Positions 5,602-63,726 of a stretch of 64,000 nucleotides of DNA are shown here, in pieces. The notes below the pieces were generated by a model. It saw only the letters and a program-made list of their open reading frames with translations. It was not told where the DNA came from and did not search any database. The position numbers were made by a program, and so were the translations under genes. The stretch comes from a bacterium (GTDB lineage: Bacteria; JAJVIF01). The stretch lies in contig JAJVIF010000001.1 of NCBI GenBank assembly GCA_022072165.1, positions 1,143,353-1,207,352 on the forward strand. The letters are read 5' to 3'. Every line of letters begins with the position of its first letter. Position 1 is the stretch's first letter.

Positions 5602-5607
5602 TACAAT
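5602..5607 (+). promoter_or_regulatory. -10 element, leaderless start of the PH-like gene
   Basis: TACAAT ends 7 bases before the ATG at 5615, so the transcript should begin at or next to the start codon. An upstream in-frame ATG (5567) has a good GAAGGAG, so an alternative longer product remains possible. Confidence 0.65.
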
Positions 5608-5614
5608 TGGCACT

Positions 5615-6004
5615 ATGCCGACCCCCAGCCACGCTGAAGAACCCATCCAGGATGACAAGTTCCCGACGGTAGGCGAAGCTGACGTTCCTGCTGAAGAATC
5701 CTTTTGGCCCAGGGTCTATCAGACCACACGACTCCGCTGGGGCCAGATGATTTTCCCGCAGCAGCTGCTTCTCGATGAATGGCATATCGTGACCCGCAAG
5801 CGGCACTTCCCCCTCTTCTGGATCACCCGCGAGGAATCGATTCCCTGGTCCAAGCTGGGGGCGGTGAAGCTGACCCGCGGACTCCTCTGGAGCACCGTCG
5901 AGATTGAGAATACCGGTGGGGTGAATCCCATCATCTTTCCCGGACTGAGCAACCGGCACGCGAACGAAGTTCGGCGCATCGTGGAGCAGCAGACATCGCG
6001 CTAA
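5615..6004 (+). CDS. Small bacterial-PH-like protein
   Basis: Predicted 129 residues from ATG 5615. An in-frame ATG at 5567 would add 16 residues and is preceded by GAAGGAG at 9 bases, so both starts may be used. The first 35 residues are acidic and probably disordered. The rest (about 40-125) is beta-rich with the pattern W-H-I-V-T-R-K-R, I-P-W-S-K-L-G-A-V-K and R-R-I-V-E-Q that recalls bPH-type domains, where a strand set is closed by a C-terminal helix. There is no signal peptide or membrane segment. It lies 24 bases before the prolidase gene, which has its own -10. Function is unknown. Confidence 0.65.
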   Translation: MPTPSHAEEPIQDDKFPTVGEADVPAEESFWPRVYQTTRLRWGQMIFPQQLLLDEWHIVTRKRHFPLFWITREESIPWSKLGAVKLTRGLLWSTVEIENTGGVNPIIFPGLSNRHANEVRRIVEQQTSR

Positions 6005-6016
6005 TCGCCGGTCCGG

Positions 6017-6022
6017 TACACT
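6017..6022 (+). promoter_or_regulatory. -10 element, leaderless start of the prolidase gene
   Basis: TACACT ends 6 bases before ATG 6029 and no Shine-Dalgarno lies between. It falls just after the stop of the preceding gene, so the two genes can be transcribed separately. Confidence 0.7.
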
Positions 6023-6028
6023 TACCGC

Positions 6029-7132
6029 ATGGCGACTGCTCTCTCTCACGACCTCGCAACTTATCTCCCCGCCCGTCTGGAGCGCTGCCGTGCTGCGATG
6101 GCAGCGCACGAGCTGGATGCCCTCCTGGTGACTGATCCGGCCAACCGGCGGTACCTCTCGGGCTTCACTGGCTCCGCCGGGATGCTGCTGATCACGCCCG
6201 AGTCCCAGTATCTGGCGACTGATTCCCGGTACTACACCCAGGCGGAACTCGAAACTCCCCTGTTTGAACTGGTGAAAGCCGGGTATGGCTATCTCAAAGG
6301 GCTCACAGAAACCCTCCCGCTTAATGGACTGCGACTCGGCATCGAAAAAGAGCATGTGACGCTCGCGGCCTTTGAGCAGATGCAGGAGGTCGCTGCGGAG
6401 TCGCACTGGACCCCGGTGTCACAGCTGGTGCAACGCTTGCGGGCCATCAAGGACCCCTACGAGCTGGAACTCCTCAAAACCGCCATCGCCCTCGGTGACG
6501 CGGCTATGGAAGCGGTGCTGGTCCACGCCCGTCCGGGAGTCACCGAAAACGAGCTCATCTCGCATTACCTGCGGATCGCCCGGGAAGTGGGAGCCGATGG
6601 CCCCAGCTACGAGCCGATTTTCGGCGCGGGTCCCAACGGCGCGATCATCCATCACCGGGGCAGCGACCGTCCCCTGGAAGCGGGCGATGTGCTGCTCATT
6701 GATGCCGGCGTGAAGTACCAGGGATACTGCTCCGACTGCACCCGGGTCTTTTGCATCGCCGAAGACAATCCCCGGCTGCGCGAAATCTACGAGATCGTGC
6801 TGAAGTCGCATGAGTACGGCTACGAGGTTACCGGGGCGGGAGTCGCCGCCAAAGAGGTCGACCTGCAAACTCGCCAGATTATCGAAGACGCGGGCTATGG
6901 TGAGTACTACGGCCATAGCTATGGTCACGGCATCGGCCTGGAAGTCCACGAGATTCCCCGGGTCTCCCGCCTGTCAGAGGATGTCCTGGAAGTGGGGATG
7001 CTCCATACAATTGAGCCGGGCATCTACCTGCCGGGAGTCGGCGGCATCCGGGTGGAAGACATCTGTGCCATCACGGACTCTGGTCCCGTACAACTCACCG
7101 GCATCAGCAAAGAGCTCCGGATTCTCGCCTAA
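6029..7132 (+). CDS. Xaa-Pro dipeptidase/aminopeptidase (M24 family)
   Basis: Cytoplasmic metallopeptidase that removes an N-terminal residue before proline. It has 367 residues: an N-terminal creatinase-type domain (L-V-T-D-P-A-N-R-R-Y-L-S-G-F-T-G) and a C-terminal pita-bread domain. The metal ligands are visible: Asp in LIDAGVKYQGYCSDCTR (two aspartates), His in SYGHGIGLEVHE, Glu in IEPGIY and the final Glu in GGIRVEDI. Size and motifs fit the YpdF/PepQ group better than the longer PepP. The stop overlaps the convergent glycosidase gene by 4 bases. Confidence 0.93.
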   Translation: MATALSHDLATYLPARLERCRAAMAAHELDALLVTDPANRRYLSGFTGSAGMLLITPESQYLATDSRYYTQAELETPLFELVKAGYGYLKGLTETLPLNGLRLGIEKEHVTLAAFEQMQEVAAESHWTPVSQLVQRLRAIKDPYELELLKTAIALGDAAMEAVLVHARPGVTENELISHYLRIAREVGADGPSYEPIFGAGPNGAIIHHRGSDRPLEAGDVLLIDAGVKYQGYCSDCTRVFCIAEDNPRLREIYEIVLKSHEYGYEVTGAGVAAKEVDLQTRQIIEDAGYGEYYGHSYGHGIGLEVHEIPRVSRLSEDVLEVGMLHTIEPGIYLPGVGGIRVEDICAITDSGPVQLTGISKELRILA

Positions 7133-8388
7133 CCCTGACCGGACCGAATCGCCTGCCACTGCTGGAAAATGCTGCCATCAAAGTAGGGCACCAGTGCCCC
7201 CTGACGACCGCTCCCTTCCACGATAACGAGGGCGGATCCCAACCGTCGCCCGTTGCAGCCGTAGCACAGCTCGCTGCCATCTTTGAGGCGCGCCCAGAGT
7301 CCGATGGACCCGCCACCATCGAGATTGAGTGCACTCTGACAGCCCAGGGTCACTGCACCATAGGCAGCTTCTTCCAGCGTGACAGGCTGCGGAAACTGGA
7401 TCAGCAGGAGTTCCCCACTGCGGGAAATCCCCACCACCGACCGGGTCGCTGATCCCAGGATGTCACGGCTGAACCCTTCCGGATTCCCCTCCTGACGTTG
7501 CACCTGTCCCTGCTGGACAATCAGCGGCCCCGCAGTCAGCAGATGGGTCGCTTGCTTCCAGTGAGGCGGCAACACGACCCCCTCATAAATCGCCTTGGCA
7601 TCCTTGGCCCGACGCAACGCCGGATGGGCGCTCTCGTTGAAACCGAGGACCGCCGGTCCCGTGGGGAGAGTCGGCCGATGCGGTGTACTGGAGGGCAGAT
7701 CGCGATTACTGATCACTACGCGCTTCGGCGCGCCGGACTCCTCAACCGGCGTCTCGGGCATCGGAGGGGCTCCGCCCAGACTCTGACTCCCACTACTGGC
7801 TGGAGCCAGCAGACGCCCATCCATCAGTCGCATCCCGCGTTGCGTACCGGACAGCGACACCTGACTCGCGCCCATCCACTGGTTGTACAGCACCACCGCA
7901 CCACTCTTCAGTGGCTGGTTGTATCCCCAAAGCCAGATCGGCTCGAAGTAATCATCGAAGGTTACAAACGCCTTCGCTTCCAGGGGGGCGATCTGGTACT
8001 GACCGCTCTTGAGGAGTCCGATCGCAGAGCGAGAACGGGTATCGAAAGAGGCAACCTGCCCGTTGATCACGATGGTTCCTATGGGAAAGCCGCCGGGGCC
8101 GAAGAAGCCACCATTGATTGCTGCCACAGCCCCTTGCTGGCGCGCGATGTCGCGGAGTGTCGCGGGCTGGCGTAACCCCTTTGCTGGCACCGCGGGCAGC
8201 AACTGCAGGGAGGCCGTGGTGGAACGACGAATCACGCGCACCGGAATCTGCCGTCCCTGAATACTCAGGGGCAGCGATTCCCAGGTCAGCCCGTTCGCCA
8301 ACTGCGGACTGGCGTTGGGCTCAGCAGTCACAGCTCCTGGAACGCAGAGGAGCAGGCAAGCCAGCAGCAGGAGGGGAGAACGTCGCAC
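7129..8388 (-). CDS. Exported phosphodiester glycosidase (NAGPA-domain) protein
   Basis: Predicted 419 residues from a GTG start. The N-terminus is a signal peptide (LLLLACLLLCVPGAVTA) with cleavage after Ala-x-Ala-like VTA. The conserved NAGPA features are present: AAINGGFF near residue 90 and ALNLDGGGS near 365. In this superfamily the aspartate-glycine-rich loop forms the active site of enzymes that hydrolyse or transfer N-acetylglucosamine-linked phosphodiesters; bacterial members act on the cell envelope. A proline-rich insertion (about 200-250) separates the halves. It is a single-gene unit, convergent with the prolidase gene. The exact substrate cannot be read from sequence. Confidence 0.85.
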   Translation of the reverse strand: MRRSPLLLLACLLLCVPGAVTAEPNASPQLANGLTWESLPLSIQGRQIPVRVIRRSTTASLQLLPAVPAKGLRQPATLRDIARQQGAVAAINGGFFGPGGFPIGTIVINGQVASFDTRSRSAIGLLKSGQYQIAPLEAKAFVTFDDYFEPIWLWGYNQPLKSGAVVLYNQWMGASQVSLSGTQRGMRLMDGRLLAPASSGSQSLGGAPPMPETPVEESGAPKRVVISNRDLPSSTPHRPTLPTGPAVLGFNESAHPALRRAKDAKAIYEGVVLPPHWKQATHLLTAGPLIVQQGQVQRQEGNPEGFSRDILGSATRSVVGISRSGELLLIQFPQPVTLEEAAYGAVTLGCQSALNLDGGGSIGLWARLKDGSELCYGCNGRRLGSALVIVEGSGRQGALVPYFDGSIFQQWQAIRSGQG

Positions 8389-8394
8389 AGGCTG

Positions 8395-8400
8395 ATTCTA
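8395..8400 (-). promoter_or_regulatory. -10 element, leaderless GTG start of the glycosidase gene
   Basis: TAGAAT ends 6 bases before the GTG at 8388. TTGGGG at 18 bases further upstream is a possible weak -35. No ribosome-binding site is present. Confidence 0.65.
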
Positions 8401-8424
8401 CGGGACGCTGTGAGATTCCCCCAA

Positions 8425-11683: not shown

Positions 11684-13216
11684 TTAGGGTGATGCAATCT
11701 CCGCCGCCAGCGACCGGGCGAGGCCAATGAAAATCCGGGTCGCTGCCCCCGATGACCAGTCCCCATTGAGGCCGCTGGACTTGTCGAAATGGTCGATCGG
11801 CGCGATGTCCAGATGTGCCCAGCGGGTCGACTGCACAAAGTGATGCAGGAAGTACGCCCCGGCGATGGCGTCGCCGTAGGGGTCCATCTGCCCCACGTTG
11901 CTGACATCAGCACGGCTGCTCTTCGCAATCTCGTCGTACTCCTCGGTCATGGGGAGTCGCCAGTACGGCTCTCCGACCGCTTCACCGAGCGCCAGAATCT
12001 GGTCTGCCAGGGCGTCGTCTTTGGAGAGCACAGCCCCCCGCCCAGTCCCCAGGGCAGCGACCGCGGACCCGGTGAGAGTCGCGGCATCGACCATGATGGC
12101 CGGCTGATACCGCTGGACCGCAAAGGCCAGCGCATCCGCCAGCACCAGCCGCCCCTCGGCATCAGTGTGGCCGATTTCGACATAGCTCCCATCCAGGGCC
12201 TGATACACATCGCTGGGGCGCATCGCCTGGGGGCCGATCGCGTTTTCGGCGAGCGCACAGACCCCCATCACATTGACCGGGAGCTGCATCGTGGCAATGG
12301 CCTGCATTGCCCCCAGCACCGCCGCAGCGCCCATCATGTCCAGGTACATGTCCCGCATTCCCTTCCAGCCCTTCACATTCAGGCCGCCGGTGTCGAAGGT
12401 GATGCCTTTTCCGACCAGGACCAGGGGTGCCTGATCCGGCGCTCCTCCCCGATGCTCCAGCGCGACCAGCCGGGGCGGCGTGGCACTCGCCGACCCCACC
12501 GCCAGCAGGAGGCCTGCGCGGCCTCCGGGGAAATCTTCCATCCGGTCCAGGCGATGCTCGTCGTACACACTCACCTGGAGCCCCAGATCCTGCAGCTTCC
12601 TGGCCTGCTCGGCGAAAGCTTCAGGAAAGAGCACATTCGCCGGGCGGTTACCGAGATCCCGGGCGAGATGGAGCCCATCGCTGATCGCCTGCGCCGCCAG
12701 GAGTGCAGCAGCCAGCGACTCCTCTCCAGCGTCGGGATGCCGCAGCACAATGCTCGTCAACTCCACTGGGGCGGGTTCATCGGGGTCGGGAGTCTGAAAC
12801 TCTTTGTATTCATAGGTGGCCAGGGCGGCTTCGACAGAGACCAGTTCCAGCAGTGACGCCCCTTCGAGTCCCGGGAGCGTACACGCCCGCAGATTGAGGG
12901 CGATCTGCGCGGACTCCCGCTTCTTCACCTGGCTGATCAGATCACGCACCGCCAGACGCATTTTGCGGATGGTTAGTCCTTCGGGTTTGGGCAGCCCGTA
13001 CAGCCAGACCGCAGGTCCACCGGAGGGCCACCGGACCGGCTCAAGCTGCTTTGGCTTCAGCGGTTGCTCGGTGAGCTGGGCGCGCAACCAGTCGATGTCT
13101 GTCTGCGGGACATCCGGCAGCATCGCCTCGTAGCGGCATTCTGGTGTGCTGTGTGTGGGGAGGATCCGGACCACATCAGCGGGCCAGGTGTCGGTCAGGG
13201 AGAACTGCAGTGTCAT
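11684..13216 (-). CDS. pepA: Leucyl aminopeptidase (M17)
   Basis: Cytoplasmic zinc exopeptidase of 510 residues that releases N-terminal amino acids from peptides. The metal-binding and catalytic segments are intact: VGKGITFDTGGLNVKG (lysine and aspartate), DMMGAAAVLGA, and HTDAEGRLVLADAL. The usual Asn of NTDAEGR is His here; the metal-binding Asp and Glu and the catalytic Arg are kept. The N-terminal about 170 residues are the variable regulatory domain. It starts leaderless from its own -10. It follows the peptide-transporter genes on the same strand, which fits peptide use. Confidence 0.95.
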   Translation of the reverse strand: MTLQFSLTDTWPADVVRILPTHSTPECRYEAMLPDVPQTDIDWLRAQLTEQPLKPKQLEPVRWPSGGPAVWLYGLPKPEGLTIRKMRLAVRDLISQVKKRESAQIALNLRACTLPGLEGASLLELVSVEAALATYEYKEFQTPDPDEPAPVELTSIVLRHPDAGEESLAAALLAAQAISDGLHLARDLGNRPANVLFPEAFAEQARKLQDLGLQVSVYDEHRLDRMEDFPGGRAGLLLAVGSASATPPRLVALEHRGGAPDQAPLVLVGKGITFDTGGLNVKGWKGMRDMYLDMMGAAAVLGAMQAIATMQLPVNVMGVCALAENAIGPQAMRPSDVYQALDGSYVEIGHTDAEGRLVLADALAFAVQRYQPAIMVDAATLTGSAVAALGTGRGAVLSKDDALADQILALGEAVGEPYWRLPMTEEYDEIAKSSRADVSNVGQMDPYGDAIAGAYFLHHFVQSTRWAHLDIAPIDHFDKSSGLNGDWSSGAATRIFIGLARSLAAEIASP

Positions 13217-13223: not shown

Positions 13224-13229
13224 ATTCTA
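13224..13229 (-). promoter_or_regulatory. -10 element, leaderless start of pepA
   Basis: TAGAAT ends 7 bases before ATG 13216 without any ribosome-binding site. It sits in the 24 bp gap after the dppC stop codon. Confidence 0.68.
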
Positions 13230-17131: not shown

Positions 17132-18766
17132 TCATTCAGCAGCGAACGCGGGGGGCTGCTGGACCAGTTGCCAGCCTCCCCCAGTCACCAGGACCGCTCC
17201 GACATATCCACTCACATCCAGACGCTGCAACAGCCCTTCGCTCCGCTCAGAAATCATCTCAGCCTGCGACTGCTGCGCCGGGTCCAGCGCCTGGAGTGCG
17301 CCATTGGTGACGATGAGCCAGTGGGTCTCTGCCGGGAAGGCCAGGAACCGGACTGTCCGGCCATCAGCCAGCCGCGTGCCGGGGAGGACCCAGGGCTCCA
17401 GCCGATGACGTTGCATCGTGAGGATGGGGTGGTCCGGTGGCGACGATGCCAGCAGCAGGTATTTGTCCCAGATCACCCGATGATTCGGCAGGTAGTACCC
17501 CGCCTGCTTGAAGCTGTCACTCAGGAGCACCAGCGTCTGCGACGAAGGTCCCGCCTTCGGGATGTCATCCACATGGACCACCATCGCCTGGTCGACCATT
17601 CGCAAAAGGGGCCAGCTCAGATCGGTCCGGGGGTCGCCGGTGGCAAAGCGCCAGAGCAGAATCGGTAGCATCAGCGCCAGAAACAGCGCCGCAATCAGGG
17701 GCTGTCGCTGCGTCACCCGGGTGCTACCACAGCCGATAACCAGCGCTACTGATGGGGCATAATCGAGAAAAATCCCCGTGAAGTTCACATGGACGATGAG
17801 GTAGAAGAGCACCCCCGGAAGCACCCACCAGCAGAGGAAACCGAGTGGAATCCGGCTGTCATCCGCGTTACTGACCGACGGCAGTCGCCGAGCCACCGGG
17901 ATCAGCGCCAGGACCACCACCACCGGGATCGGCAGCGCGAAGCCGAGCCAGAAGAAGTCGCGCATCGCCCGCCAGTTCGCGGCAAGCTCCTGCAGCGGTC
18001 CCGACTCGAAGCGTCCGAAGCGGGTCTCGTGCTTGACCCCTTCGGTCTGGATCGCCTGCAGCCATTCCCCCACTCCTCCGGATGCCTGCCAGACCGGGAC
18101 ATACGCCGCCAGCGATAGTCCTGTCAGTACTACGAGTGACAGGTGTTTTTGTCGACCCGGGAGTCCCCACCAGACCCAGGCCAACAGCGGGAGTCCCAGG
18201 ACCAGACTCGGGAGGCGATACGCTCCACCGATCGCGGCTATGACAAACGGCCACCACCAGCGCGGGTCCCCTTCCTGTCGGACGCGCCAGGCGGACCAGC
18301 CAAGCCACGCGAACCAACAGGCACCTGCGGGATAGCTCAGGGCGACCGACCCGTAGTAGAGCGTCAACGGACTCGCCAGCAGCAGGAGTGCCGCGACACC
18401 TCCCGCCAGCACGCCCCCCCAAGCCCGCCCGAGCAACCAGGTCGCCCAGGCCGCGCCCCCAAGCAGCAGCCAGTTCACCAGGAGATACCCGCGATTCGGC
18501 TCTCCGCCCATGATTTTCGTGCCGAGCCAGCCGGATACCACATACGCCGGGTAGCCCGGCGGATGGGGCTGGTGCAGCCGGACATCGAATTGCTCCAGCG
18601 CGAGGGCATACTGCGCGGAGTCCCATCGGGCGAGATATCGGGAGTGACACAGCCACTGGCCACACCACAGGAGGAGCCCAGCGACACCCATCGCCAGCAT
18701 GACCCGCTTCAGCAGCAGACCGTCAGATGGTGGTGTAGCCGCAGTCGGGGGAGACAAGGTCGCCAC
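17132..18766 (-). CDS. GT-C type membrane glycosyltransferase-like protein (DUF2723-like)
   Basis: Predicted 544 residues from a leaderless GTG. There are about 10-11 hydrophobic helices in the first 400 residues, and the C-terminal about 140 residues are soluble. The first periplasmic loop carries W-D-S-A-Q-Y followed by H-P-P-G-Y-P. This resembles the D-S/G-E-F and A-H-P-P-G-Y-P signature of DUF2723 / protein O-mannosyltransferase-like GT-C proteins, where an acidic residue in loop 1 is catalytic. The donor would be a lipid-linked sugar. It is divergent from crcB with only 20 bp between start codons and an overlapping -10. Acceptor unknown. Confidence 0.75.
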   Translation of the reverse strand: MATLSPPTAATPPSDGLLLKRVMLAMGVAGLLLWCGQWLCHSRYLARWDSAQYALALEQFDVRLHQPHPPGYPAYVVSGWLGTKIMGGEPNRGYLLVNWLLLGGAAWATWLLGRAWGGVLAGGVAALLLLASPLTLYYGSVALSYPAGACWFAWLGWSAWRVRQEGDPRWWWPFVIAAIGGAYRLPSLVLGLPLLAWVWWGLPGRQKHLSLVVLTGLSLAAYVPVWQASGGVGEWLQAIQTEGVKHETRFGRFESGPLQELAANWRAMRDFFWLGFALPIPVVVVLALIPVARRLPSVSNADDSRIPLGFLCWWVLPGVLFYLIVHVNFTGIFLDYAPSVALVIGCGSTRVTQRQPLIAALFLALMLPILLWRFATGDPRTDLSWPLLRMVDQAMVVHVDDIPKAGPSSQTLVLLSDSFKQAGYYLPNHRVIWDKYLLLASSPPDHPILTMQRHRLEPWVLPGTRLADGRTVRFLAFPAETHWLIVTNGALQALDPAQQSQAEMISERSEGLLQRLDVSGYVGAVLVTGGGWQLVQQPPAFAAE

Positions 18767-18773: not shown

Positions 18774-18780
18774 TAGCATA
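18774..18780. promoter_or_regulatory. Shared bidirectional -10 for crcB and the GT-C gene
   Basis: The 7 bp TAGCATA reads TAGCAT on the plus strand (18774-18779), 7 bases before the crcB ATG. It reads TATGCT on the minus strand (18780-18775), 8 bases before the GTG of the GT-C gene. The two hexamers overlap by 5 bp, so both transcripts would be leaderless. On the plus strand GAGACA (18751-18756) at a 17-base spacing is a fair -35; the minus -35 is weak. Confidence 0.65.
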
Positions 18781-18786: not shown

Positions 18787-19185
18787 ATGCCAGCAGGAAG
18801 CGCCATCATGCACTGGATGCTCGTGGCGTGTGGCGGTGCGCTTGGCGCGGTCGCCCGGTATGCAGTCGCGCAATGGCTGCATCCGGACCGTCTCCCGCAG
18901 GCGATTCCCCTGGGGACCCTGGCCGTGAATGTCACCGGGTCAGCGCTCCTTGGCTGGCTCTTCGCGCAGCTCTTCACCGGGATGGAACAGGGGAAAGACC
19001 AGTCACTCTGGTTGCTGTGGGGTGTTGGATTCTGCGGCGCATTCACCACGATGTCGACGTTAAGCCTTGAGACACTGACCCTGATACAGCGCAACCATCC
19101 GACGCTCGCTTTGCTGAACTGGAGCCTGCAAACGCTGCTCTGTCTGGGCGCCGCCTGGGCCGGGTTACTCCTCGGGAAACGTTAG
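18787..19185 (+). CDS. crcB: Fluoride channel CrcB/Fluc
   Basis: Four-helix membrane protein of 132 residues; Fluc works as a dual-topology dimer that exports fluoride. Conserved features: GGALGAVARY near the N-terminus, GTLAVNVTGS in helix 2 (the pore asparagine), and GFCGAFTT in helix 3. The following S-T segment reads TTMSTL where most family members have TTFSTF, so both Phe-box positions are substituted. It starts 7 bases after its -10, so there is no room for a fluoride riboswitch. The 3' end overlaps the convergent dipeptidase gene by 21 bases. Confidence 0.93.
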   Translation: MPAGSAIMHWMLVACGGALGAVARYAVAQWLHPDRLPQAIPLGTLAVNVTGSALLGWLFAQLFTGMEQGKDQSLWLLWGVGFCGAFTTMSTLSLETLTLIQRNHPTLALLNWSLQTLLCLGAAWAGLLLGKR

Positions 19186-20238
19186 CCGACGATCCGCGTC
19201 CTGGGCAGTCGCAGGGAGCACCTGCCGCAGCACCCGGAGCCAGTTGCCTCCTAAAATCGCCTGGATGTCATCGTCGCGATACCCCCGACGCATCAGCGCG
19301 GCGGTGAGATTCGGCAGCGCTGCGACATCCTCCAGCCCGGTGATCGGAATCTCATACCCATCGAAATCACTGCCGATGCCGACATATCCGATTCCGGCAA
19401 TGCTGACAGCATGATCGATGTGGTCGCAGACATCTTCCACACTCAGGCGCAGCGACTTCGCATCGTCATGGGGTCGCATATGCTGCGCGATGAAATCGAT
19501 ACCGATAACCCCACCCGTCGCGGCGATACCCCGTAGAGTCTCATCGGAGCAATTGCGCGGAATGTCCATAAGCTGACGACAGAGTGAGTGCGAAGCGATG
19601 ACGGGCTGTGTGGCAGAAGAGAGGACTTCCTCGACCCCCGGGTCCGCCAGGTGGGCAATGTCGACGAGCATCCCCAGCTGGCGCATTCTGCGGACCACCC
19701 GCCAGCCCGCCTTCGTCAGGCCGCTGGGCTGTGGATTCCCGCAACCGGAGGCGAGTTCGCTGTCGTGATTGTGGGTCAGCCCCACGACCCGGACTCCCGC
19801 CCAATAGAACGCATCGAGGAGCGTGACATCGCCCTGCAATGGTGTGGCCCCTTCGATTGAGAAACAGAAGCCGAGCTTCCCGGACCCCGGTCCGATGCCA
19901 TCCAGATCAGCTACGGAAGCTACCTGTTGTAGCCGACCGCCGGAGCGCATGATGATCCGCTGCCCGGTCGCCAGGAGATCCTGGGCAAAGGCGGTCGCTT
20001 CCTGTCCATGGAACTTCGCAGGGGTCCAGAGCGAGGCAATCTGCAGACTGACACCCCCGGCGATGAAGCGGGGATAGTCGGTATGGCCGGATGACTGTCG
20101 CTCGAAAAAGTCATAGCCCTTGTCCATGACCTCGTAAAACGTGTCGGCGTGGCCATCAATGACCCAGGAGCGCCGATGCAGGGCCAGGGCCTCCTGTGAA
20201 GCATTCGGAAGCGATCCGGCAACTGTGTCAGGACTCAT
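19165..20238 (-). CDS. Membrane-dipeptidase-like zinc peptidase (M19)
   Basis: Predicted 357 residues of the renal dipeptidase family, binuclear zinc enzymes that split dipeptides. Zinc ligands are recognisable: H-A-D in VIDGHADTF, the Glu in SIEGATPL (the bridging position), His in GLTHNHDS and His in ASHSLCRQL. GIGSDFDGYE near the C-terminus carries the conserved Asp. There is no signal peptide, so it is likely cytoplasmic, as for many bacterial members. Its ATG overlaps the TGA of the upstream YHS-like gene (4 bases), so the two are co-translated. It could process peptides imported by the nearby transporter. Confidence 0.93.
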   Translation of the reverse strand: MSPDTVAGSLPNASQEALALHRRSWVIDGHADTFYEVMDKGYDFFERQSSGHTDYPRFIAGGVSLQIASLWTPAKFHGQEATAFAQDLLATGQRIIMRSGGRLQQVASVADLDGIGPGSGKLGFCFSIEGATPLQGDVTLLDAFYWAGVRVVGLTHNHDSELASGCGNPQPSGLTKAGWRVVRRMRQLGMLVDIAHLADPGVEEVLSSATQPVIASHSLCRQLMDIPRNCSDETLRGIAATGGVIGIDFIAQHMRPHDDAKSLRLSVEDVCDHIDHAVSIAGIGYVGIGSDFDGYEIPITGLEDVAALPNLTAALMRRGYRDDDIQAILGGNWLRVLRQVLPATAQDADRRLTFPEE

Positions 20239-20708
20239 GATGTCGGTCCCATCGTGGGTGGCGGCAGGGTGTCGATGTTTTCTTCCGTCACCAGATAGTC
20301 TTCCGGCACCCCGATGGTGTCCGGGTCGGTTTTCGCTTTACGCACAAATTCGATGATGCAGGGGGGACAGCAGAAGTAGTACAGCCGGCCGTTAATCTGC
20401 CAGGTCATGGTTCCCCGGGATCCGGTAATCGGGCAGCGGACATCCCCCTTTTTCGGTGCGGCATGGGTCGTGGCCTCATCTCCGAGCATGGTGCGGGCAT
20501 ACTTCTCAAACGGCGATACATTGCCATTCGCCTCGATGTCCGCCGCAGTGTAAATCCCACCAGGTGTCAGGACTTCCTGGGCCACCAGATCGATTCCCGA
20601 CTGCGGCGCAACTGGGGGGGGCGGCGGGGCAGGACTCAGGAAGAGGCCGATGCCAACTCCCATCCCAATCGCGAGGAGTCCCAGTCCGGCCAGGGGAAGT
20701 GGTTTCAC
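20235..20708 (-). CDS. Membrane-anchored YHS-like cysteine protein
   Basis: Predicted 157 residues from a leaderless GTG. One N-terminal hydrophobic helix (residues 4-26, LAGLGLLAIGMGVGIGLFL) is followed by a proline run, so the rest is probably outside the membrane. Near residues 92-121 lies CPITGS, then W-Q-I-N-G-R-L-Y-Y-F-C-C-P-P-C, which resembles YHS/TRASH-type metal-binding domains (CP-V-C-G ... Y-Y-F-C-C-x-x-C). Four cysteines could bind a metal ion. It is first in a two-gene unit with the dipeptidase. The metal and role are unknown. Confidence 0.72.
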   Translation of the reverse strand: MKPLPLAGLGLLAIGMGVGIGLFLSPAPPPPPVAPQSGIDLVAQEVLTPGGIYTAADIEANGNVSPFEKYARTMLGDEATTHAAPKKGDVRCPITGSRGTMTWQINGRLYYFCCPPCIIEFVRKAKTDPDTIGVPEDYLVTEENIDTLPPPTMGPTS

Positions 20709-20715: not shown

Positions 20716-20721
20716 ATGGTA
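20716..20721 (-). promoter_or_regulatory. -10 element, leaderless GTG start of the YHS-like gene
   Basis: TACCAT ends 7 bases before GTG 20708; no ribosome-binding site is present. It separates the YHS-like/dipeptidase pair from the helicase gene upstream. Confidence 0.58.
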
Positions 20722-25578: not shown

Positions 25579-25584
25579 TACACT
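25579..25584 (+). promoter_or_regulatory. -10 element, leaderless GTG start of the membrane protein
   Basis: TACACT ends 8 bases before GTG 25593, 10 bases after the recD2 stop codon. No ribosome-binding site. Confidence 0.65.
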
Positions 25585-25592: not shown

Positions 25593-26672
25593 GTGCGAGC
25601 CCTTGCGGTGTATGCCCTGCTGGTCCTGCTGGCAGACTGGGCGCTCTTCAGTCGCTTTCTGGCGCTACCGCCAGGACGCCTCCTCGTGCGCCTGATCCTG
25701 ATCGTGATGTTGACCATGATGGTCGCCCAGGTAGGGTCGCTTGTTCAGTTCCTTTATGGCGACTGGCTGTTCATCAGTTCCTGGGGCACCCGGGACCTCT
25801 TTCTGGCGACCACGCTCATCAAGCTCCCCTTTGCCTGGGTCGCCCTCCCCCGGATGGAATTCACCAAGTTTTTTTCCCTCGCGACTCTGGGAAACCTGGC
25901 GGCGCTGCTCATTTTTACTCCCCTGCTCTGGCTCTATCCGGCGATCGTGGGGGTGCATCCCGACACCCTCCGCGACCTGGAGCGACAGGCGATCGATGGG
26001 GGCTTCGAAATCCGGGCCGCCATCGAAAAGTTCCGCATCAACCACGGCGGACAGGTGCCGGCATATGTCTTTGGAGGAGATGACGCGAGCTGGCGCGGCA
26101 TGAGCCATCGGGACCGCCTGCTGCAGGAAGGGCTGCTGGAAGCCTATCCCCGGAATCCCCTCCATCTGCACCGGGCATACATGCCCGGACGTCAGCGCTG
26201 GACCCTCCCTGGGCTGTTCCTCGGGCAGAAGGAAAAGGCGTTCGAGACGCTTCGGACGCAGTGGCTGCCCCGGGTGCGTCATTCGTCAGAACCCCGCTTC
26301 GGGCTCCAGGGGATCCGGATGGGGAATCAGCTCAGCGACCCCCGGGTCCCGGTGAGCCTCCTGCCACAAGCCCTGGCGCCGGATCAGCCGGTCCCCCTGC
26401 CGGGCAGCTTCCTCTATCGGGCCTTTGATCTGAACGATGACGGCCAGGTCGAGAGCTATGTGCTGATGGTCTTTGGTGCGGAGGGTTCTTCGGGGCTGGA
26501 TGTCTTTCGGCGATCCGCCACCGATGGGGATCTGGCGCTAATCGGGCCCACCGGGAGCTCACCTGACCAGTATCAGATCGCTACGGATGGCGTTCCGGAT
26601 GGCGTCATTTGGGTCACTTACGGCGGCCTGTTGTCGATTCCCGGACAGTCCTGGGGGTTCGACAGGCCATAG
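25593..26672 (+). CDS. Membrane protein with pilin-like extracellular head
   Basis: Predicted 359 residues from a leaderless GTG. Four hydrophobic helices (about 3-22, 30-55, 65-85 and 95-120) are followed by a soluble C-terminal half. Residues about 128-205 recall the head of type II secretion pseudopilins: a helix I-R-A-A-I-E-K-F-R-I-N-H-G-G-Q-V-P, then L-L-E-A-Y-P-R-N-P. A D-L-N-D-D-G-Q-V-E-S segment (about 290-300) resembles an EF-hand calcium loop. I know no family with this arrangement. It precedes a coiled-coil gene and the kinase locus on the same strand, with separate -10 elements. Confidence 0.7.
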   Translation: MRALAVYALLVLLADWALFSRFLALPPGRLLVRLILIVMLTMMVAQVGSLVQFLYGDWLFISSWGTRDLFLATTLIKLPFAWVALPRMEFTKFFSLATLGNLAALLIFTPLLWLYPAIVGVHPDTLRDLERQAIDGGFEIRAAIEKFRINHGGQVPAYVFGGDDASWRGMSHRDRLLQEGLLEAYPRNPLHLHRAYMPGRQRWTLPGLFLGQKEKAFETLRTQWLPRVRHSSEPRFGLQGIRMGNQLSDPRVPVSLLPQALAPDQPVPLPGSFLYRAFDLNDDGQVESYVLMVFGAEGSSGLDVFRRSATDGDLALIGPTGSSPDQYQIATDGVPDGVIWVTYGGLLSIPGQSWGFDRP

Positions 26673-35482: not shown

Positions 35483-35488
35483 ATCGTA
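35483..35488 (-). promoter_or_regulatory. -10 element, leaderless start of ppx
   Basis: TACGAT ends 7 bases before ATG 35475; no ribosome-binding site. It decides between two close in-frame ATGs. Confidence 0.65.
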
Positions 35489-38747: not shown

Positions 38748-38753
38748 TAGGCT
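38748..38753 (+). promoter_or_regulatory. -10 element, leaderless GTG start of pgeF
   Basis: TAGGCT ends 7 bases before GTG 38761. The AGGGG between them is only 3 bases from the start, too close for a ribosome-binding site. A CCGGGAG/CTCCGG inverted repeat lies just upstream. Confidence 0.55.
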
Positions 38754-38760: not shown

Positions 38761-39600
38761 GTGTATTTTCCGGACCTCCACTCACTGAGCCTGCCGACAG
38801 CGCGACTCTGGACCCCTCCCTGGCCAGCATTGCCTGGGTTGCTGGCGGGCTTCACGTCCCGGCAATGGCGACCGGGTCCCGATGCTCCATGGCAGGACGA
38901 CTGGAGCTTTCGCCGGCCCGATGACGACACTCCCCCACCGGGCCTGGCCCATCTGCGAGATGTTTTACAGATCCAGGAGCTCCCCGTGGTCGGGGAACAG
39001 CAGGTCCATGGGGTCGATATCCAGATGCAGTCAACTGCGTCACTCTCCCCAGGCTCTTTCACGCTGATTCCCGGCAATGACGGGATCCTTCTCACTGATC
39101 CGGGAGCGCTGGCGCTCGCGCAGTCGGCAGACTGCTGCATTGGACTCTTCATTGATCCGACACGACACCTCGCCGGGGTGTTTCACGCCGGCTGGCGCGG
39201 GGCAGTCCAGGGCCTCCCTTTGCGGATGGTCGAGACCTGCGCTGCAGAGTTCAGGGTGGATCCGCAAGACGTGTGGATTGCCCTGGGCCCCACGATCCAG
39301 CAGCCGAGTTTTCAGGTCGGCCCGGAGGTCCGGGATGCCTGTCTGAAATGGAACTCTCAACTCCCCTCCTTCGACCACGAGCGGCTCCTACAGCCAGATC
39401 CGGCGGCACCGGAACGCTGGCGGCTCGACCTGCCGGGATTCGTGGTCGCTCAGCTCCTGGCAGCTGGGGTCCTGCCAGAGCACCTGGCGGTGAGCCGGGT
39501 GGACACATTCAACTCACCAACGGAGTGTTTTTCCTATCGTCGGGAAGGCCCTGGGATGGGGCTACAGGTCGGATTTTGCGGCTGGCAGCGGGTGCGTTGA
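38761..39600 (+). CDS. pgeF: Laccase-domain (YfiH/PgeF) purine nucleoside/peptidoglycan-editing protein
   Basis: Predicted 279 residues from a leaderless GTG. The family core is present: QQVHG (metal-binding His), S-A-D-C-C-I-G-L (Cys) and VFHAGWRGAVQGL (His), which form the zinc site. Members cleave purine nucleosides (adenosine, inosine) by phosphorolysis or edit peptidoglycan intermediates. The N-terminal 90 residues are less conserved. The stop codon overlaps the -35 of the following efflux operon. Confidence 0.9.
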   Translation: MYFPDLHSLSLPTARLWTPPWPALPGLLAGFTSRQWRPGPDAPWQDDWSFRRPDDDTPPPGLAHLRDVLQIQELPVVGEQQVHGVDIQMQSTASLSPGSFTLIPGNDGILLTDPGALALAQSADCCIGLFIDPTRHLAGVFHAGWRGAVQGLPLRMVETCAAEFRVDPQDVWIALGPTIQQPSFQVGPEVRDACLKWNSQLPSFDHERLLQPDPAAPERWRLDLPGFVVAQLLAAGVLPEHLAVSRVDTFNSPTECFSYRREGPGMGLQVGFCGWQRVR

Positions 39601-51364: not shown

Positions 51365-51370
51365 TACACT
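51365..51370 (+). promoter_or_regulatory. -10 element, leaderless start of cdsA
   Basis: TACACT ends 8 bases before ATG 51379. An AGAGGAG lies too far upstream (17 bases) to serve. Confidence 0.65.
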
Positions 51371-51378: not shown

Positions 51379-52281
51379 ATGCTTCGCCTGGCGACCGGCA
51401 TACCGTTGGGCCTCCTGATGGTGCTCTTGTTTGGCTTTCCCCGGACCGGGACTCCACACCTGTTACTCATCTGCCTGCTACCTCTGAGCTGCCTGATGCT
51501 GGCGGAAGTGTTTCGCCTGCAGGGTCTGGTGACGAGCAACGGACGCCTGACTCGCGACGCGCTGGTCGGCTGCACTTTCGGGGGGCTCCTGTTGATCCTG
51601 GCGCATACCGGCCACTGGCTGCTGTTCCCGGCGTGGAGCGGACTGTTTCTGGTCGCGCTCATGCTGCCAGGACTCCGTCACTTCCCGCTCGACTCTCCTG
51701 TGTTGCGCGCCCCATCGATCATCTTCTTCTCCACGCTGTGGGTCGCGGGTGGACTGGCGGCGTGTTTCGGCCTGCGGGACCTGGGAGAAGCCTGGATGGA
51801 CCTGGCCTGGCTCCCGGCCATCGCGTTCAACCCCGTCTCGCTTCTGCCGGTCTTCGGTGCCTGGTGCTACGACTCCTGCGCCCTGGGAACTGGGGCGGCG
51901 ACAGGCACCCTGCCGATGGCTCCGCATATCTCGCCGAAGAAGAGCTGGGAGGGATTCGCTGGAGGACTCATGGGGGGAGCGGTCGGGATGATGGGCCTTA
52001 TCTGGATCACGGAACGATTCGCCGGCAACGCCTGGGTCGTGCCGGTCGGAGCCTGGCTTGTGGCAGCCATACTGGGGGCATTCTTCGGGGCCTGCTCGCA
52101 GTGCGGCGACCTGCTGGTCTCCTGCCTGAAGCGGGAAGCCCATGTCAAAGACTCCGCGCAGCTGATCCCCAGTCAGGGGGGGCTGATGGATAAAGGCGAT
52201 GGTTTCCTGCTCGTGAGCTCCTTCGCCCTCGGACTCCTCTATTGCTTCACGCTGCTGGCGCATCCCCGGTCCCCGTTATGA
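51379..52281 (+). CDS. cdsA: Phosphatidate cytidylyltransferase (CdsA), divergent signature
   Basis: Predicted 300 residues with about 7-8 membrane helices. Makes CDP-diacylglycerol for phospholipid synthesis. The family signature S-x-x-K-R-x4-K-D is present (SCLKREAHVKDSAQLIP), but the usual H-G-G-x-x-D-R reads Q-G-G-L-M-D-K. The aspartates thought to bind metal are kept, so activity is likely but specificity may differ. The Asp in GAWCYDSCALGTG corresponds to the D-T/D-S-x-A-Y-x-x-G motif. The stop overlaps the following rpe promoter. Confidence 0.88.
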   Translation: MLRLATGIPLGLLMVLLFGFPRTGTPHLLLICLLPLSCLMLAEVFRLQGLVTSNGRLTRDALVGCTFGGLLLILAHTGHWLLFPAWSGLFLVALMLPGLRHFPLDSPVLRAPSIIFFSTLWVAGGLAACFGLRDLGEAWMDLAWLPAIAFNPVSLLPVFGAWCYDSCALGTGAATGTLPMAPHISPKKSWEGFAGGLMGGAVGMMGLIWITERFAGNAWVVPVGAWLVAAILGAFFGACSQCGDLLVSCLKREAHVKDSAQLIPSQGGLMDKGDGFLLVSSFALGLLYCFTLLAHPRSPL

Positions 52282-52282
52282 T
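52277..52282 (+). promoter_or_regulatory. -10 element, leaderless start of rpe
   Basis: TATGAT covers the cdsA stop codon and ends 7 bases before ATG 52290. An ATGA overlap (52278) also allows coupling to cdsA. Confidence 0.5.
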
Positions 52283-52289: not shown

Positions 52290-52985
52290 ATGTCCATGCT
52301 CCGACTGGCTCCGAGCTTGCTGGCTGCCGACCAGACCAATCTGCAGGCGGCAGTGGACGCCTGCGCAGCAGCAGGGATCCAGGTGCTCCATCTGGATGTC
52401 ATGGATGGGCACTATGTGCCGAATCTCACCTTCGGTCCGAAAGTCGCGGTGGACCTCGCCCGGTACATCACCGCCCGCGAGTATGAAATGCACCTCGATG
52501 TGCACCTGATGGTGACTGATCCCGATCGCTTTGTCCCCGCCTTTGCGGAAGCACGTCCGGCCTGGATCACGATTCACGCGGAAGCGCCGATACATCCGTT
52601 GCGGACGCTGCAGCTCATCCGGGATCACGGGTGCGGTGCCGGGATTTCGCTGAATCCTGGGACACCGCTGTCCGCGCTTGAAGAACTCCTCGACCTCACC
52701 GATCTCATCCTGCTGATGAGTGTGAACCCTGGATTCGCTGGCCAACGCTTCATCGAGTCGAGCCTGGACAAAATCGCCCGCTGTCGCACGTTGCTGGAGC
52801 ACCGTCAGTCATTGGCCATCCTCGAAGTCGATGGCGGCATCGGAGTCGCGAATCTGTCGCAGGTCGTGGCAGCAGGTGCCCGGATGCTGGTGGTCGGAAA
52901 CGCCGCGTTCGATGAGCGGGAAGGTCGGACCATGGCCGGGAATCTGGCGGCGTTGCAGGCCAGCCTGAGGCAGTGTCAGATTTGA
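52290..52985 (+). CDS. rpe: Ribulose-phosphate 3-epimerase
   Basis: Predicted 231 residues from ATG 52290. Converts ribulose 5-phosphate to xylulose 5-phosphate. TIM-barrel signatures: L-A-P-S-L-L-A-A-D, HLDVMDGHYVPN (metal His/Asp), M-H-L-D-V-H-L-M-V and LEVDGGIGVANL. Starts at 52278 and 52281 are in frame and possible by coupling; 52290 fits the -10. rpiB lies far off at 10.6 kb. Confidence 0.95.
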   Translation: MSMLRLAPSLLAADQTNLQAAVDACAAAGIQVLHLDVMDGHYVPNLTFGPKVAVDLARYITAREYEMHLDVHLMVTDPDRFVPAFAEARPAWITIHAEAPIHPLRTLQLIRDHGCGAGISLNPGTPLSALEELLDLTDLILLMSVNPGFAGQRFIESSLDKIARCRTLLEHRQSLAILEVDGGIGVANLSQVVAAGARMLVVGNAAFDEREGRTMAGNLAALQASLRQCQI

Positions 52986-54756: not shown

Positions 54757-54799
54757 CGCCCCCAGGCAGCTTCGGCTACTGGGGGCGTGTTGTTGTTGG
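54757..54799 (+). terminator. Terminator between the convergent cytochrome genes
   Basis: A 9 bp stem CGCCCCCAG / CTGGGGGCG (54757-54765 and 54779-54787) followed by TGTTGTTGTTGG. The right arm of the hairpin overlaps the stop region of the cytochrome gene on the minus strand. Confidence 0.75.
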
Positions 54800-55603
54800 A
54801 GGAAAGCGATGATGCGGATCATGGCAGGTCGCACAATTGAGCTGACCCGCGACATCAGCGGGAAAGTACTGATGCAGTGCAGTTGATGCCACACCGGGAT
54901 GACAACTGGCGCAGAACTGCTCGAGTGTCGATGACGCTCCCACCAGGTCCGCATACGGAATCTGCAGCAACGTGGACTCCGGTCCGGCAAAGGGCGGCTC
55001 TGGAATGACGAGCACGGTTTCCAGCTCATCGCCCCGCATGAGGTCGCCCCGGGTCGCACCACGGAACGGCCGTAGGAGCCCGGGCACCGCGTGGTGCGGC
55101 TGATGACAGGTGACACAGGACAACCCAGCACCGGCATGGGGGCTGGTGTCCCAGACCCCGCTGGAGTCCCCGCCCTCCCACTGATGGCATTCCAGACAAA
55201 TCGCATCTGCCACTTCAGCCGTTGTACGCAATGGATGCAGGATGCCGTTCTGATTGCCCCCACCGACCGTATGGGCGCTCCCGGGGCCGTGGCACACCTC
55301 GCAGGCATGGTGCTGGACTGCCGCAAGCTCGCCGAAAGTCAGCAGCGACGCGTGGCTCGCCTGTCCCGGAGCGATTGGCAGCGCATGACACAACAGGCAG
55401 GCATCGGTCCCCAGGTAGTCCGGAGGTGGCCCCCCTTCCTGCCGGACCTGAGCGGTGAGGGCTGTCGCCGCAGGGACGCCATAAGGCGACGGATCACTGA
55501 TGCCCGGGGCGGACAGGGCGATGTCCGCCAGGCCGGTACTCCCCAGCAGGACCAGCAGCAGGAATCCCTGTGTGTCAGTCAGTCGGCAACGTTGGAGGCG
55601 CAT
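54776..55603 (-). CDS. Hexahaem c-type cytochrome
   Basis: Predicted 275 residues from leaderless ATG 55603. A signal segment (G-F-L-L-L-V-L-L-G-S-T-G) lies near residues 13-30. Six CxxCH motifs are present: CLLCH, CEVCH, CLECH, CVTCH, CASCH and CATCH, so six covalently bound haems are expected in the periplasm. Spacing resembles doubled-CXXCH cytochromes used in extracellular electron transfer or nitrite/tetrathionate-type reduction. No catalytic partner is adjacent. Opposite the cytochrome lipoprotein, suggesting a shared electron path (inference). Confidence 0.92.
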   Translation of the reverse strand: MRLQRCRLTDTQGFLLLVLLGSTGLADIALSAPGISDPSPYGVPAATALTAQVRQEGGPPPDYLGTDACLLCHALPIAPGQASHASLLTFGELAAVQHHACEVCHGPGSAHTVGGGNQNGILHPLRTTAEVADAICLECHQWEGGDSSGVWDTSPHAGAGLSCVTCHQPHHAVPGLLRPFRGATRGDLMRGDELETVLVIPEPPFAGPESTLLQIPYADLVGASSTLEQFCASCHPGVASTALHQYFPADVAGQLNCATCHDPHHRFPPTTTRPQ

Positions 55604-55610: not shown

Positions 55611-55616
55611 AGCGTA
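55611..55616 (-). promoter_or_regulatory. -10 element, leaderless start of the hexahaem cytochrome
   Basis: TACGCT ends 7 bases before ATG 55603; CTGGCA at 17 bases upstream (55639-55634) is a good -35. Confidence 0.7.
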
Positions 55617-60204: not shown

Positions 60205-60290
60205 GCCCAGGTGGTGAAATGGTATACACGCCAGGTTCAGGTCCTGGTGCTCGCAAGAGCGTGGAAGTTCGAATCTTCTCCTGGGCACCA
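60205..60290 (+). tRNA. tRNA-Leu (anticodon CAG)
   Basis: 86 bases with encoded CCA. The acceptor stem GCCCAGG pairs with CCTGGGC. The anticodon stem CCAGG / CCTGG encloses TTCAGGT, anticodon CAG, reading CUG. A long variable arm (GTGCTCGCAAGAGCG region) marks a class II tRNA, and the T-loop TTCGAAT is standard. Discriminator A fits leucine. Confidence 0.95.
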
Positions 60291-60959: not shown

Positions 60960-61075
60960 ACCGATTCTTCCTCCTGTGATCCTGTCGGTCGTCGTGAGTA
61001 GTTGCGGAATAGGAGCGCGGTTGGCGCTATCCGGTTGAACACCGCTTAGAGCGATATTCTTTCCATGGGCTTCAA

Positions 61076-61103
61076 AGTATCTAAAAGACCCCATGTGCCG
61101 CAA
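61076..61103 (-). promoter_or_regulatory. Promoter of the YceI gene
   Basis: TTGCGG (61103-61098), 16-base spacer, GATACT (61081-61076). Leader about 110 bases with AGGAGG. Confidence 0.5.
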
Positions 61104-61154
61104 GGGGGGCTGCCCAGGCACATGGCACAACACCGCTTTCTAACGATGGTTTCC

Positions 61155-62087
61155 CTATTGATAGTGAGTTCCCTGGTACTCGCCAGCGTAGATGGCGGGC
61201 CGCTCGCGCGATGCATCCTGCTGCCCCTGGGTCCATTCCTCCGCACTCAGGGTCGCCCGACGCCCGTCATCAAAGCGGACCACCACCAGCCCGGACAGGG
61301 GGAGGTGCTGCGTTACTTCGCACGGCACCCCGCCAATCTCCTTCCGGCTCCCCAGGACCGGCAGTTGCTTCACCAGGTCGTCATAGACTTCGACTTCATA
61401 GCGCAGGCAGCACTTCAGCCGACCACAGACACCGCTGGTTTTGCCGGGGTCCAGCGGCAGATTTTGCAGCCGGGCCATCTTCACAGCGACCGTGGGAAAG
61501 AGGTCGAGGTGCTGGTGACAGCAGAGTTCCCGTCCACAGGTCCCCATGCCGCTGTAGATCGCGGCCTCGTCCCGCACCCCGATCTGATGCAGCTCGATAC
61601 GGCACTTGAAGATGGTCGCCAGATCCCGGACCAGGATCCGGAAGTCCACCCGGTGCTCCGCCGAGAAGTGAAACGTGATTTTCCCCCTGTCGAATCGCCA
61701 GTCCGCTCCCAGGATCTTCATCGGCAACTGGTGCTCCGCCACCCGTTGTCGACAGGTGGTCAGGGCGCTGCTCTCTTCGGATCGCAGGCTCCCGATCACC
61801 TCCCAGTCGGCATCGGTAACATTCCGTTCATACCGCCCAAAGACTTCGTCCCATTCCTCGCGCGTGAGGTCCCCCAGGGTAAGTCGCGCCGCGACTATCC
61901 CCCACTCCAGCCCCGCTTCTTCGTTCTTCCAGATGATGAGTTCCCGGACCTGTACCGGGTCCGCACCGCCGAGGATCATCCATTTCTCGCGCAACATCCC
62001 GGTCTGGACCACCAGAATCGGGGTGGTCGGGGGGCTCCCGGCCGGGACCTGCGGTTGCCGCAGCTTGCGGAGTGATCCTTTGGGCAT
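61155..62087 (-). CDS. ricT: PSP1-domain protein RicT (YaaT)
   Basis: Predicted 310 residues, leaderless ATG 62087. PSP1 domain from about residue 70. The cysteine signature G-M-G-T-C-G-R-E-L-C-C and S-G-V-C-G-R-L-K-C-C is intact; in B. subtilis RicT these residues help hold iron-sulfur clusters in the RicAFT complex that promotes RNase Y cleavage. No ricA or ricF is adjacent. It follows holB as in Firmicutes. Confidence 0.93.
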   Translation of the reverse strand: MPKGSLRKLRQPQVPAGSPPTTPILVVQTGMLREKWMILGGADPVQVRELIIWKNEEAGLEWGIVAARLTLGDLTREEWDEVFGRYERNVTDADWEVIGSLRSEESSALTTCRQRVAEHQLPMKILGADWRFDRGKITFHFSAEHRVDFRILVRDLATIFKCRIELHQIGVRDEAAIYSGMGTCGRELCCHQHLDLFPTVAVKMARLQNLPLDPGKTSGVCGRLKCCLRYEVEVYDDLVKQLPVLGSRKEIGGVPCEVTQHLPLSGLVVVRFDDGRRATLSAEEWTQGQQDASRERPAIYAGEYQGTHYQ

Positions 62088-62095
62088 CAGAACGC

Positions 62096-62101
62096 ATTGT
62101 A
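62096..62101 (-). promoter_or_regulatory. -10 element, leaderless start of ricT
   Basis: TACAAT ends 8 bases before ATG 62087; no ribosome-binding site. It lies in the gap after holB. Confidence 0.68.
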
Positions 62102-62130
62102 GACGCCGAACAGTCTGCCGGATGGGTGGC

Positions 62131-63258
62131 TTAACGTTGCGGAAGGACCTCGCCGCATGCGAACCCGAAGCTCTCCATCACGAGCCCTTCCAGCACCAGC
62201 GACCAGTTGGCGTTGTATCCCATCCGGAGTGGAGCCCGGCGCAGCGCGGTAAGGACGGGGACCAGAGCCGGGGTCCGAAGGTCGGGCTCGGTGTGCCAGG
62301 CCGCCAGCGCCAGCCGGGCTACTGCCCGCAGGAACGCCTCCTGTCGGACTCCCGCTGGGGGAGCATCGTCTGCCGGATGAAAATTGACATAGGCCGGGAG
62401 GTCCGATGCCTCACGCCGCCAGCGTTCCAGATCCCGCAAGTCACCACCGATGGGCATCAGCTCCACTTCGGCGAGGCTTTCCCATTGCTGAAACAGTGCT
62501 TCCAGGCCGGCCACCAGGGCGTAAAACGAGGATTCCCGGGCTACGCTCATTTGTCGTAACCAGTGTAGCCAGGCCTCACGAAACGCACGATGCCCCGGCA
62601 GCAGGGCGAAGCGGACAACATCCCCGACTCGTCCACCGAGACTGGGGGCGAGCGCGGCGATCGCCGCCTGATCCTCCGCAGGAAGCCAGCGCGAGAGTGC
62701 TTCCAGAATTGCGGTCGGCGTACTTTCCCGGCAGGGGACCGGAAGGGTCCTTGAGCGAATGGTCGGCAGCAGAGATTCCGGTGAAGAGGTCAGCAGCAGG
62801 AACTGCCCCCAGGGAGGTGGTTCTTCCAGGGTCTTGAGCAGGAGGTTCGCGACGGTCGGATTGAACTGTTCGGCCTGATCGAGAATGACGATCTTGCGTG
62901 CCCCCCGCTGCGGCGAGGTTTGCATCCGCTCCAGCAGCTCCCGGGCTTCTTCGGCCAGCAGCTCCCGTGGACGTGAAAACACCATGACATCCGGATGAGT
63001 TCCAATGCGAATCAGATGCGCATCCGACGCCGCCGGATCATAGGTCAGCCCGTCCGACTCCTCGCCAAAGAGTCCCGGTCCGGCAGCTCCGGGGGCCAGC
63101 AGGGTCCGGGCGTAGACCAGCGCCAGCGCGAGCTTCCCAATCCCGGCAGGGCCATGCAGCAGCAGGGCGTGATGCCCGGAATCATTGGCCGCCGCACGCG
63201 CCAGGTACTCCCGGGGCAGTTCAAGTCCGACAATGGTGGGAAACGGGAGTGCTGTCAT
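62131..63258 (-). CDS. holB: DNA polymerase III delta' subunit
   Basis: Predicted 375 residues. Clamp-loader AAA+ subunit. P-loop HGPAGIGKLA (Leu replaces Thr/Ser after the Lys, tolerated in delta' which does not hydrolyse ATP), then I-V-I-L-D-Q-A-E-Q-F-N-P-T-V-A-N-L-L-L-K-T-L-E-E-P-P and S-R-T sensor-like segment. ATG overlaps the yaaR stop by 4 bases. Confidence 0.92.
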   Translation of the reverse strand: MTALPFPTIVGLELPREYLARAAANDSGHHALLLHGPAGIGKLALALVYARTLLAPGAAGPGLFGEESDGLTYDPAASDAHLIRIGTHPDVMVFSRPRELLAEEARELLERMQTSPQRGARKIVILDQAEQFNPTVANLLLKTLEEPPPWGQFLLLTSSPESLLPTIRSRTLPVPCRESTPTAILEALSRWLPAEDQAAIAALAPSLGGRVGDVVRFALLPGHRAFREAWLHWLRQMSVARESSFYALVAGLEALFQQWESLAEVELMPIGGDLRDLERWRREASDLPAYVNFHPADDAPPAGVRQEAFLRAVARLALAAWHTEPDLRTPALVPVLTALRRAPLRMGYNANWSLVLEGLVMESFGFACGEVLPQR

Positions 63259-63713
63259 GCGACCAGGTCCAGGAGCATCCCGCGAATCTCATCGAGGAGG
63301 GAGAGCAACTGCAACTGCGACCCTTCCTGCCGGATGAACTGGCCAGAGAGGTCCTCCAGCCGGCTATCGATGGTCCGGACCAGCAGCACCAGGTCATGCT
63401 CCGCCTGGGGATCAAAGACCGCCAGGCGACGTCGCTTGTGGGACTTCTTCAGGAACTCTTCCAAAAACTCCCGGATTGCCTGCTTGTACCCAATGAGGGT
63501 CTCCGGGGTCCCCTGCTGACCGAAACGACGGGAGGCCTCTTCGATCCGCTCCAGATGCTCCCGCCAGACCGGTTCCGGAGCCTCCTGTGACTGCGTGGCC
63601 TTTTCGAAGGCGGACGCGAAGCCGGAATCGCCGACACGGGAAGCCTTCGCCGGCGATTGAGCTCCCGGCTGCAGACCACTCTGCTGGGCTTTGCGGAGGG
63701 CATCGAAGTCCAT
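63255..63713 (-). CDS. yaaR: YaaR family protein (DUF327)
   Basis: Predicted 152 residues from leaderless ATG 63713; an in-frame upstream ATG would read through the promoter. The family core is present from about residue 45: W-R-E-H-L-E-R-I-E-E-A-S, T-L-I-G-Y-K-Q-A-I-R-E-F-L-E-E-F and L-V-L-L-V-R-T-I-D-S-R-L-E-D-L. Order yaaR-holB-ricT is as in Firmicutes. Function unknown. Confidence 0.88.
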   Translation of the reverse strand: MDFDALRKAQQSGLQPGAQSPAKASRVGDSGFASAFEKATQSQEAPEPVWREHLERIEEASRRFGQQGTPETLIGYKQAIREFLEEFLKKSHKRRRLAVFDPQAEHDLVLLVRTIDSRLEDLSGQFIRQEGSQLQLLSLLDEIRGMLLDLVA

Positions 63714-63720
63714 CGCCCCG

Positions 63721-63726
63721 ATTGTA
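63721..63726 (-). promoter_or_regulatory. -10 element, leaderless start of yaaR
   Basis: TACAAT ends 7 bases before ATG 63713; it also sets the operon yaaR-holB. Confidence 0.68.

Follow-up and report, generated by a model that had tools for sequence, protein, structure and literature searches.

Fifteen genes on both strands of a 64,000-nucleotide stretch of bacterial DNA (hereafter the window; contig JAJVIF010000001.1 of assembly GCA_022072165.1, here G000:C1:1143353-1207352) are preceded, at a distance of only 6 to 8 bases, by the hexamer TANNNT. Does this arrangement mark -10 promoter elements so close to the coding sequence that the mRNA would begin with the start codon itself? A first-pass annotation of the window had read it as leaderless initiation and predicted that the genome-wide distribution of TANNNT-to-start distances would peak sharply at 6 to 8. 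Such a peak is present across 609 genes in 864 kb of the genome. This pattern is very probably best explained by leaderless transcription of a sizable minority of genes from -10 boxes of the ordinary sigma-70 type.

A genome-wide spacing peak

The source genome spans 3.26 Mb, with a G+C content (GC) of 62.7%. It was sampled through the window and 40 further stretches of 20 kb (L117 to L136 and L185 to L204), which together make up 26% of its length, and the usable genes were delineated with a codon-periodicity gene caller. Distances to TANNNT were recorded for every ATG or GTG candidate near the edge of a coding region, starts being chosen irrespective of the motif, and the background rate per gap was taken from gaps 16 to 44. 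The hexamer occurred 29, 38, and 31 times at gaps 6, 7, and 8, respectively, over a background of 7.6 per gap, i.e., 98 occurrences versus 22.8 expected (P = 2e-31). The peak is three positions wide, does not extend to gaps 0 to 5 or 14 to 23, and was not found at internal in-frame or out-of-frame start codons. The excess equals 0.124 box per gene, or about one gene in eight, and this estimate is conservative because it is diluted by start calls placed too far downstream and by genes lying inside operons.

Two samples of comparable composition (200 kb each, GC 62.3%) were run through the same pipeline as controls. Sinorhizobium meliloti pSymB yielded 9 boxes versus 5.4 expected, with no significant peak, and the plasmids of Deinococcus deserti, an organism known for leaderless genes, yielded 20 versus 5.5, again an excess of 0.124 per gene. 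Within the window itself, 15 of 53 genes (113 ATG/GTG candidates) carry a box at gaps 6 to 8 versus 1.7 expected (Poisson P = 4e-10). That count comprises 14 of the sites described below plus 15244(-), whose box is probably fortuitous; the site at 63713 falls outside its range.

Features of the boxes and a putative mechanism

Features of the class were charted in the 82 genes assigned to box-type starts and compared with the remaining 527. Neither the interior of the box nor the base preceding the start codon (-1) had been used in selecting sites. TACAAT (19) and TACACT (15) together account for 34 of the 82 boxes versus 5.8% of TANNNT occurrences sample-wide (P = 9e-21), the fourth base is A in 49 of 82 versus 19% (P = 1e-15), and the box is preceded by GG. 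A search for an upstream -35 element returned TTGACA matches at shuffle level. The -1 base is a pyrimidine in 71 of the 82 genes (87%) versus 359 of 527 (68%) elsewhere (P = 4e-4), which fits transcription starting with the start-codon purine as +1.

The position of the peak, the box interior, the -1 pyrimidine, and the controls lend support to the leaderless reading of the first-pass annotation. From the boxes, their spacing and genome-wide enrichment, weak Shine-Dalgarno (SD) pairing, and the missing -35, all of which are observed, we infer where RNA would start and how ribosomes would be loaded. RNA polymerase carrying the group-1 sigma-70 factor would bind -10 elements of the (G)GTACAAT/TACACT type with no recognizable -35, and transcription would begin 7 to 9 bases past the box, with the first base of ATG or GTG (A or G) as +1. 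Ribosomes would then initiate at the 5'-terminal start codon independently of an SD sequence. Other genes use SD leaders, and the 16S rRNA 3' end retains an intact anti-SD.

Weighing the alternatives

Several observations weigh against this interpretation. According to the background count, about one-quarter of the candidate starts with TANNNT at 6 to 8 would be chance occurrences, and three or four of the fifteen window sites (5615, 18787, 38761, and, less so, 52290) may be fortuitous or SD led. Strong SD sequences precede 2.4% of box-type genes versus 46% of the others, but each start had been assigned from whichever of the two signals was stronger, which makes this difference circular in part. 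Start codons in the class are ATG (62), GTG (20), and TTG (0), but the lack of TTG falls short of significance (P = 0.15). Finally, gaps 9 to 13 are mildly raised (15, 12, 14, 8, and 10 versus 7.6 per gap), so some transcripts may carry leaders of 1 to 5 bases.

This last signal, together with gap 8 being as common as gap 6, would be accommodated if the -10 boxes were genuine and RNA synthesis generally started 1 to 5 bases before the codon, so that the mRNAs would carry very short leaders and not be leaderless in the strict sense. We regard this as unlikely, albeit the most serious of the rivals, since, given the mode at 6 to 8 and the -1 pyrimidine, transcription would be expected to start on the codon itself; moreover, strictly leaderless and short-leader forms grade into each other. 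The boxes could also be secondary internal promoters, with main transcripts starting farther upstream and ribosomes initiating internally without an SD. Read-through is indeed possible among genes located 20 to 49 bases after a same-strand gene, where the box occurs in 27 of 84 cases (7 of 121 at <20 bases); this intergenic spacing is also where a leaderless promoter fits. However, at divergent genes, where such read-through cannot occur, the box is about as frequent as overall (15.6%), and, with strong SDs largely missing from the class, transcripts with leaders would be translated inefficiently. This scenario thus seems improbable. Least credible of all is a composition artifact, whereby AT-richer start regions would generate TANNNT by chance. 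It may hold for single sites, as some window boxes are poor and about 2 of the 15 are expected by chance. Nonetheless, we reject it as a general account on the basis of the narrowness of the peak and its absence both from the GC-matched alphaproteobacterial replicon and from internal or out-of-frame start codons.

Box-associated starts in the window

All fifteen hexamers reported by the first-pass annotation were read back at the expected distance (gap 6 at two sites, gap 7 at nine, and gap 8 at four), although five of the genes, not four as it had counted, start with GTG (Table 1). Pfam matches above the curated cutoff were obtained for 11 of the 15 genes, indicating that most of them are real. 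When the sites were graded by the quality of the box, competing starts, and the strength of the SD, ten came out as good. No earlier start is possible at 8388, 6029, 13216, or 51379, where the frame is closed 9 to 30 bases upstream (9 nucleotides at 8388).

The additional proposal that the -10 box decides between alternative starts fits 35475, where the rival ATG at 35484 overlaps the box and would be excluded from a transcript with the usual start distance. The start at 52290 was graded as intermediate. There, the box and the stop codon of the preceding gene overlap, a second ATG 6 nucleotides downstream gives the typical rpe N terminus, and rpe of relatives is SD led in a thin comparison with few orthologs that have full N termini.

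The claim that no usable SD lies at these starts agrees with the rarity of strong SDs in the class. Three sites are doubtful. The start at 5615 competes with a rival ATG in the same frame, 5567, whose SD is good (-9.1 kcal/mol). The box at 18787 is poor (63rd percentile), the SD energy is -8.4, and the CrcB domain begins at residue 11, with further methionines close by. At 38761, a poor box (74th percentile) coincides with an SD energy of -6.3. Genes with strong SD leaders coexist in the window, as had been noted, e.g., at 36098, 45022, and 17092.

Table 1. Box-associated starts in the window (positions of the window) and divergent leaderless pairs in the sampled stretches
Element	Coordinates	Strand	Gap	Start	Gene	Grade
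TACAAT	5602..5607	+	7	ATG 5615		doubtful
-10 TACACT	6017..6022	+	6	ATG 6029	M24 peptidase, 6029-7132	good
-10 TAGAAT	8395..8400	-	6	GTG 8388	NAGPA-domain protein, 7129-8388	good
-10 TAGAAT	13224..13229	-	7	ATG 13216	M17 aminopeptidase, 11684-13216	good
-10 TATGCT	18775..18780	-	8	GTG 18766	membrane protein, 17132-18766	intermediate
TAGCAT	18774..18779	+	7	ATG 18787	CrcB, 18787-19185	doubtful
-10 TACCAT	20716..20721	-	7	GTG 20708	gene 20235-20708	good
-10 TACACT	25579..25584	+	8	GTG 25593	gene 25593-26672	good
-10 TACGAT	35483..35488	-	7	ATG 35475	Ppx/GppA-HD, 33799-35475	good
TAGGCT	38748..38753	+	7	GTG 38761	Cu-oxidase_4 protein, 38761-39600	doubtful
-10 TACACT	51365..51370	+	8	ATG 51379	CTP_transf_1 protein, 51379-52281	good
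-10 TATGAT	52277..52282	+	7	ATG 52290	rpe, 52290-52985	intermediate
-10 TACGCT	55611..55616	-	7	ATG 55603	multihaem cytochrome c, 54776-55603	good
-10 TACAAT	62096..62101	-	8	ATG 62087	PSP1 protein, 61155-62087	good
-10 TACAAT	63721..63726	-	7	ATG 63713	DUF327 protein, 63255-63713	good, top box score
Divergent pair, L117				10108/10147		
Divergent pair, L129				17407/17445		
Divergent pair, L186				5846/5892		
Divergent pair, L186				9020/9074		

Contrast with class-mates

The phylum of the host is represented here by four genomes and lies outside Deinococcota. Host RpoB is closest to that of the metagenome-assembled genome AUK107 (74%), followed by Gastranaerophilales (~61%), and a DnaB comparison gave no named relatives. 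When one of the class-mates, G002, was compared with AUK107, 113 of 138 sampled 30-mers of an rpoB stretch were identical; G002 and G030 are probably one organism.

Neither of the two adequately sampled class-mates shows the peak. TANNNT was counted at 6 to 8 in 25 cases versus 27.1 expected in G001 (GC 49%) and in 15 versus 30.1 in G002 (GC 45%), whereas the host's excess per gene would have given ~49 and ~54, respectively. Both genomes have SD-led starts at a rate similar to that of the host. This contrast is drawn from G001 and G002, which share the class but no lower rank with the host, G003 being too fragmentary. Regions 2.3 and 2.4 of the group-1 sigma factor are those of a standard housekeeping sigma and agree between the host and G001, rows of several other loci read in wrong frames being disregarded; this led us to discard an altered sigma as the cause. 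CarD or a loss of S1 was likewise discarded as the cause: S1 is present, and no free-standing CarD was found in the phylum, its sole CarD-type domain found being within an Mfd-sized frame. Therefore, the difference between the host and its class-mates would most simply reside in the promoters rather than in the polymerase.

The divergent start codons at 18766 and 18787 are 21 bases apart, and their boxes overlap as TAGCATA. Among the called frames of the sample, four divergent leaderless pairs have separate boxes and starts 38 to 54 bp apart (Table 1); none was found in G001 or G002. We rejected the idea that divergent genes widely share one self-complementary -10 box (TANNNTA), as this pattern occurs at 6 places genome-wide versus 18 for the reversed control pattern. 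Tentatively, leaderless initiation may have arisen or expanded independently in one high-GC lineage of this small uncharacterized phylum, while class-mates stayed SD led. This would have involved neither CarD nor a change in -10 recognition by sigma and would also have yielded compact divergent pairs (starts 21 to 54 bp apart, flanking the two -10 boxes).

Relation to known leaderless systems

In the leaderless transcriptome of Mycobacterium tuberculosis, many genes reportedly have the start codon, ATG or GTG, at +1. Mycobacterial leaderless genes have a TANNNT -10 box with a weak or no -35, and the mycobacterial polymerase uses CarD and RbpA, unlike the host phylum, whose only CarD-type domain found lies in an Mfd-sized frame. 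Genes preceded by such boxes have been described as TA-led across 953 bacterial genomes, with TAnnnT lying ~10 bp before the start in high-GC groups and taken as leaderless, as in the host, whose lineage is not named in that survey (Zheng et al. 2011, PMC3160421). The -10 motif of Deinococcus-Thermus is also similar, i.e., TANNNT, often TACACT, near the start, with no need for a -35 and with coexisting SD genes, and experiments in Deinococcus radiodurans have demonstrated promoter activity of a -10 adjacent to an open reading frame (Zhong et al. 2025, PMC12340547). The host differs in belonging to another phylum in which no free-standing CarD was found. Despite the equal excess per gene, the gap in the D. 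deserti sample is mostly 6, whereas that in the host ranges from 6 to 8 and is centered on 7. According to a later summary, leaderless transcription is predicted for 21.6% of bacterial species (PMC9581028).

Since the mechanism is already known from these groups, our findings add only two things: another lineage, at the phylum level, in which leaderless genes are abundant, and a contrast inside one class between a genome of GC 62.7% with the signal and genomes of 45 to 49% without it. Such patchy presence is mildly interesting and makes it possible to test if leaderless initiation is an ancestral trait or tracks GC. In practical terms, annotation of starts in the host genome should use the -10 box.

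Other features of the window

The multihaem cytochrome c gene matches the cytochrome c7 and CXXCH Pfam families, which suggests a role of its product in respiratory electron transfer outside the cytoplasm. At 61155-63713, the DUF327 (YaaR-like) gene, a 375-amino-acid open reading frame, and the PSP1 gene follow in a row, the first and third with leaderless-type starts. We take this row to resemble the yaaR-holB-ricT order of Firmicutes. The sole tRNA of the window is a tRNA-Leu(CAG) at 60205-60290.
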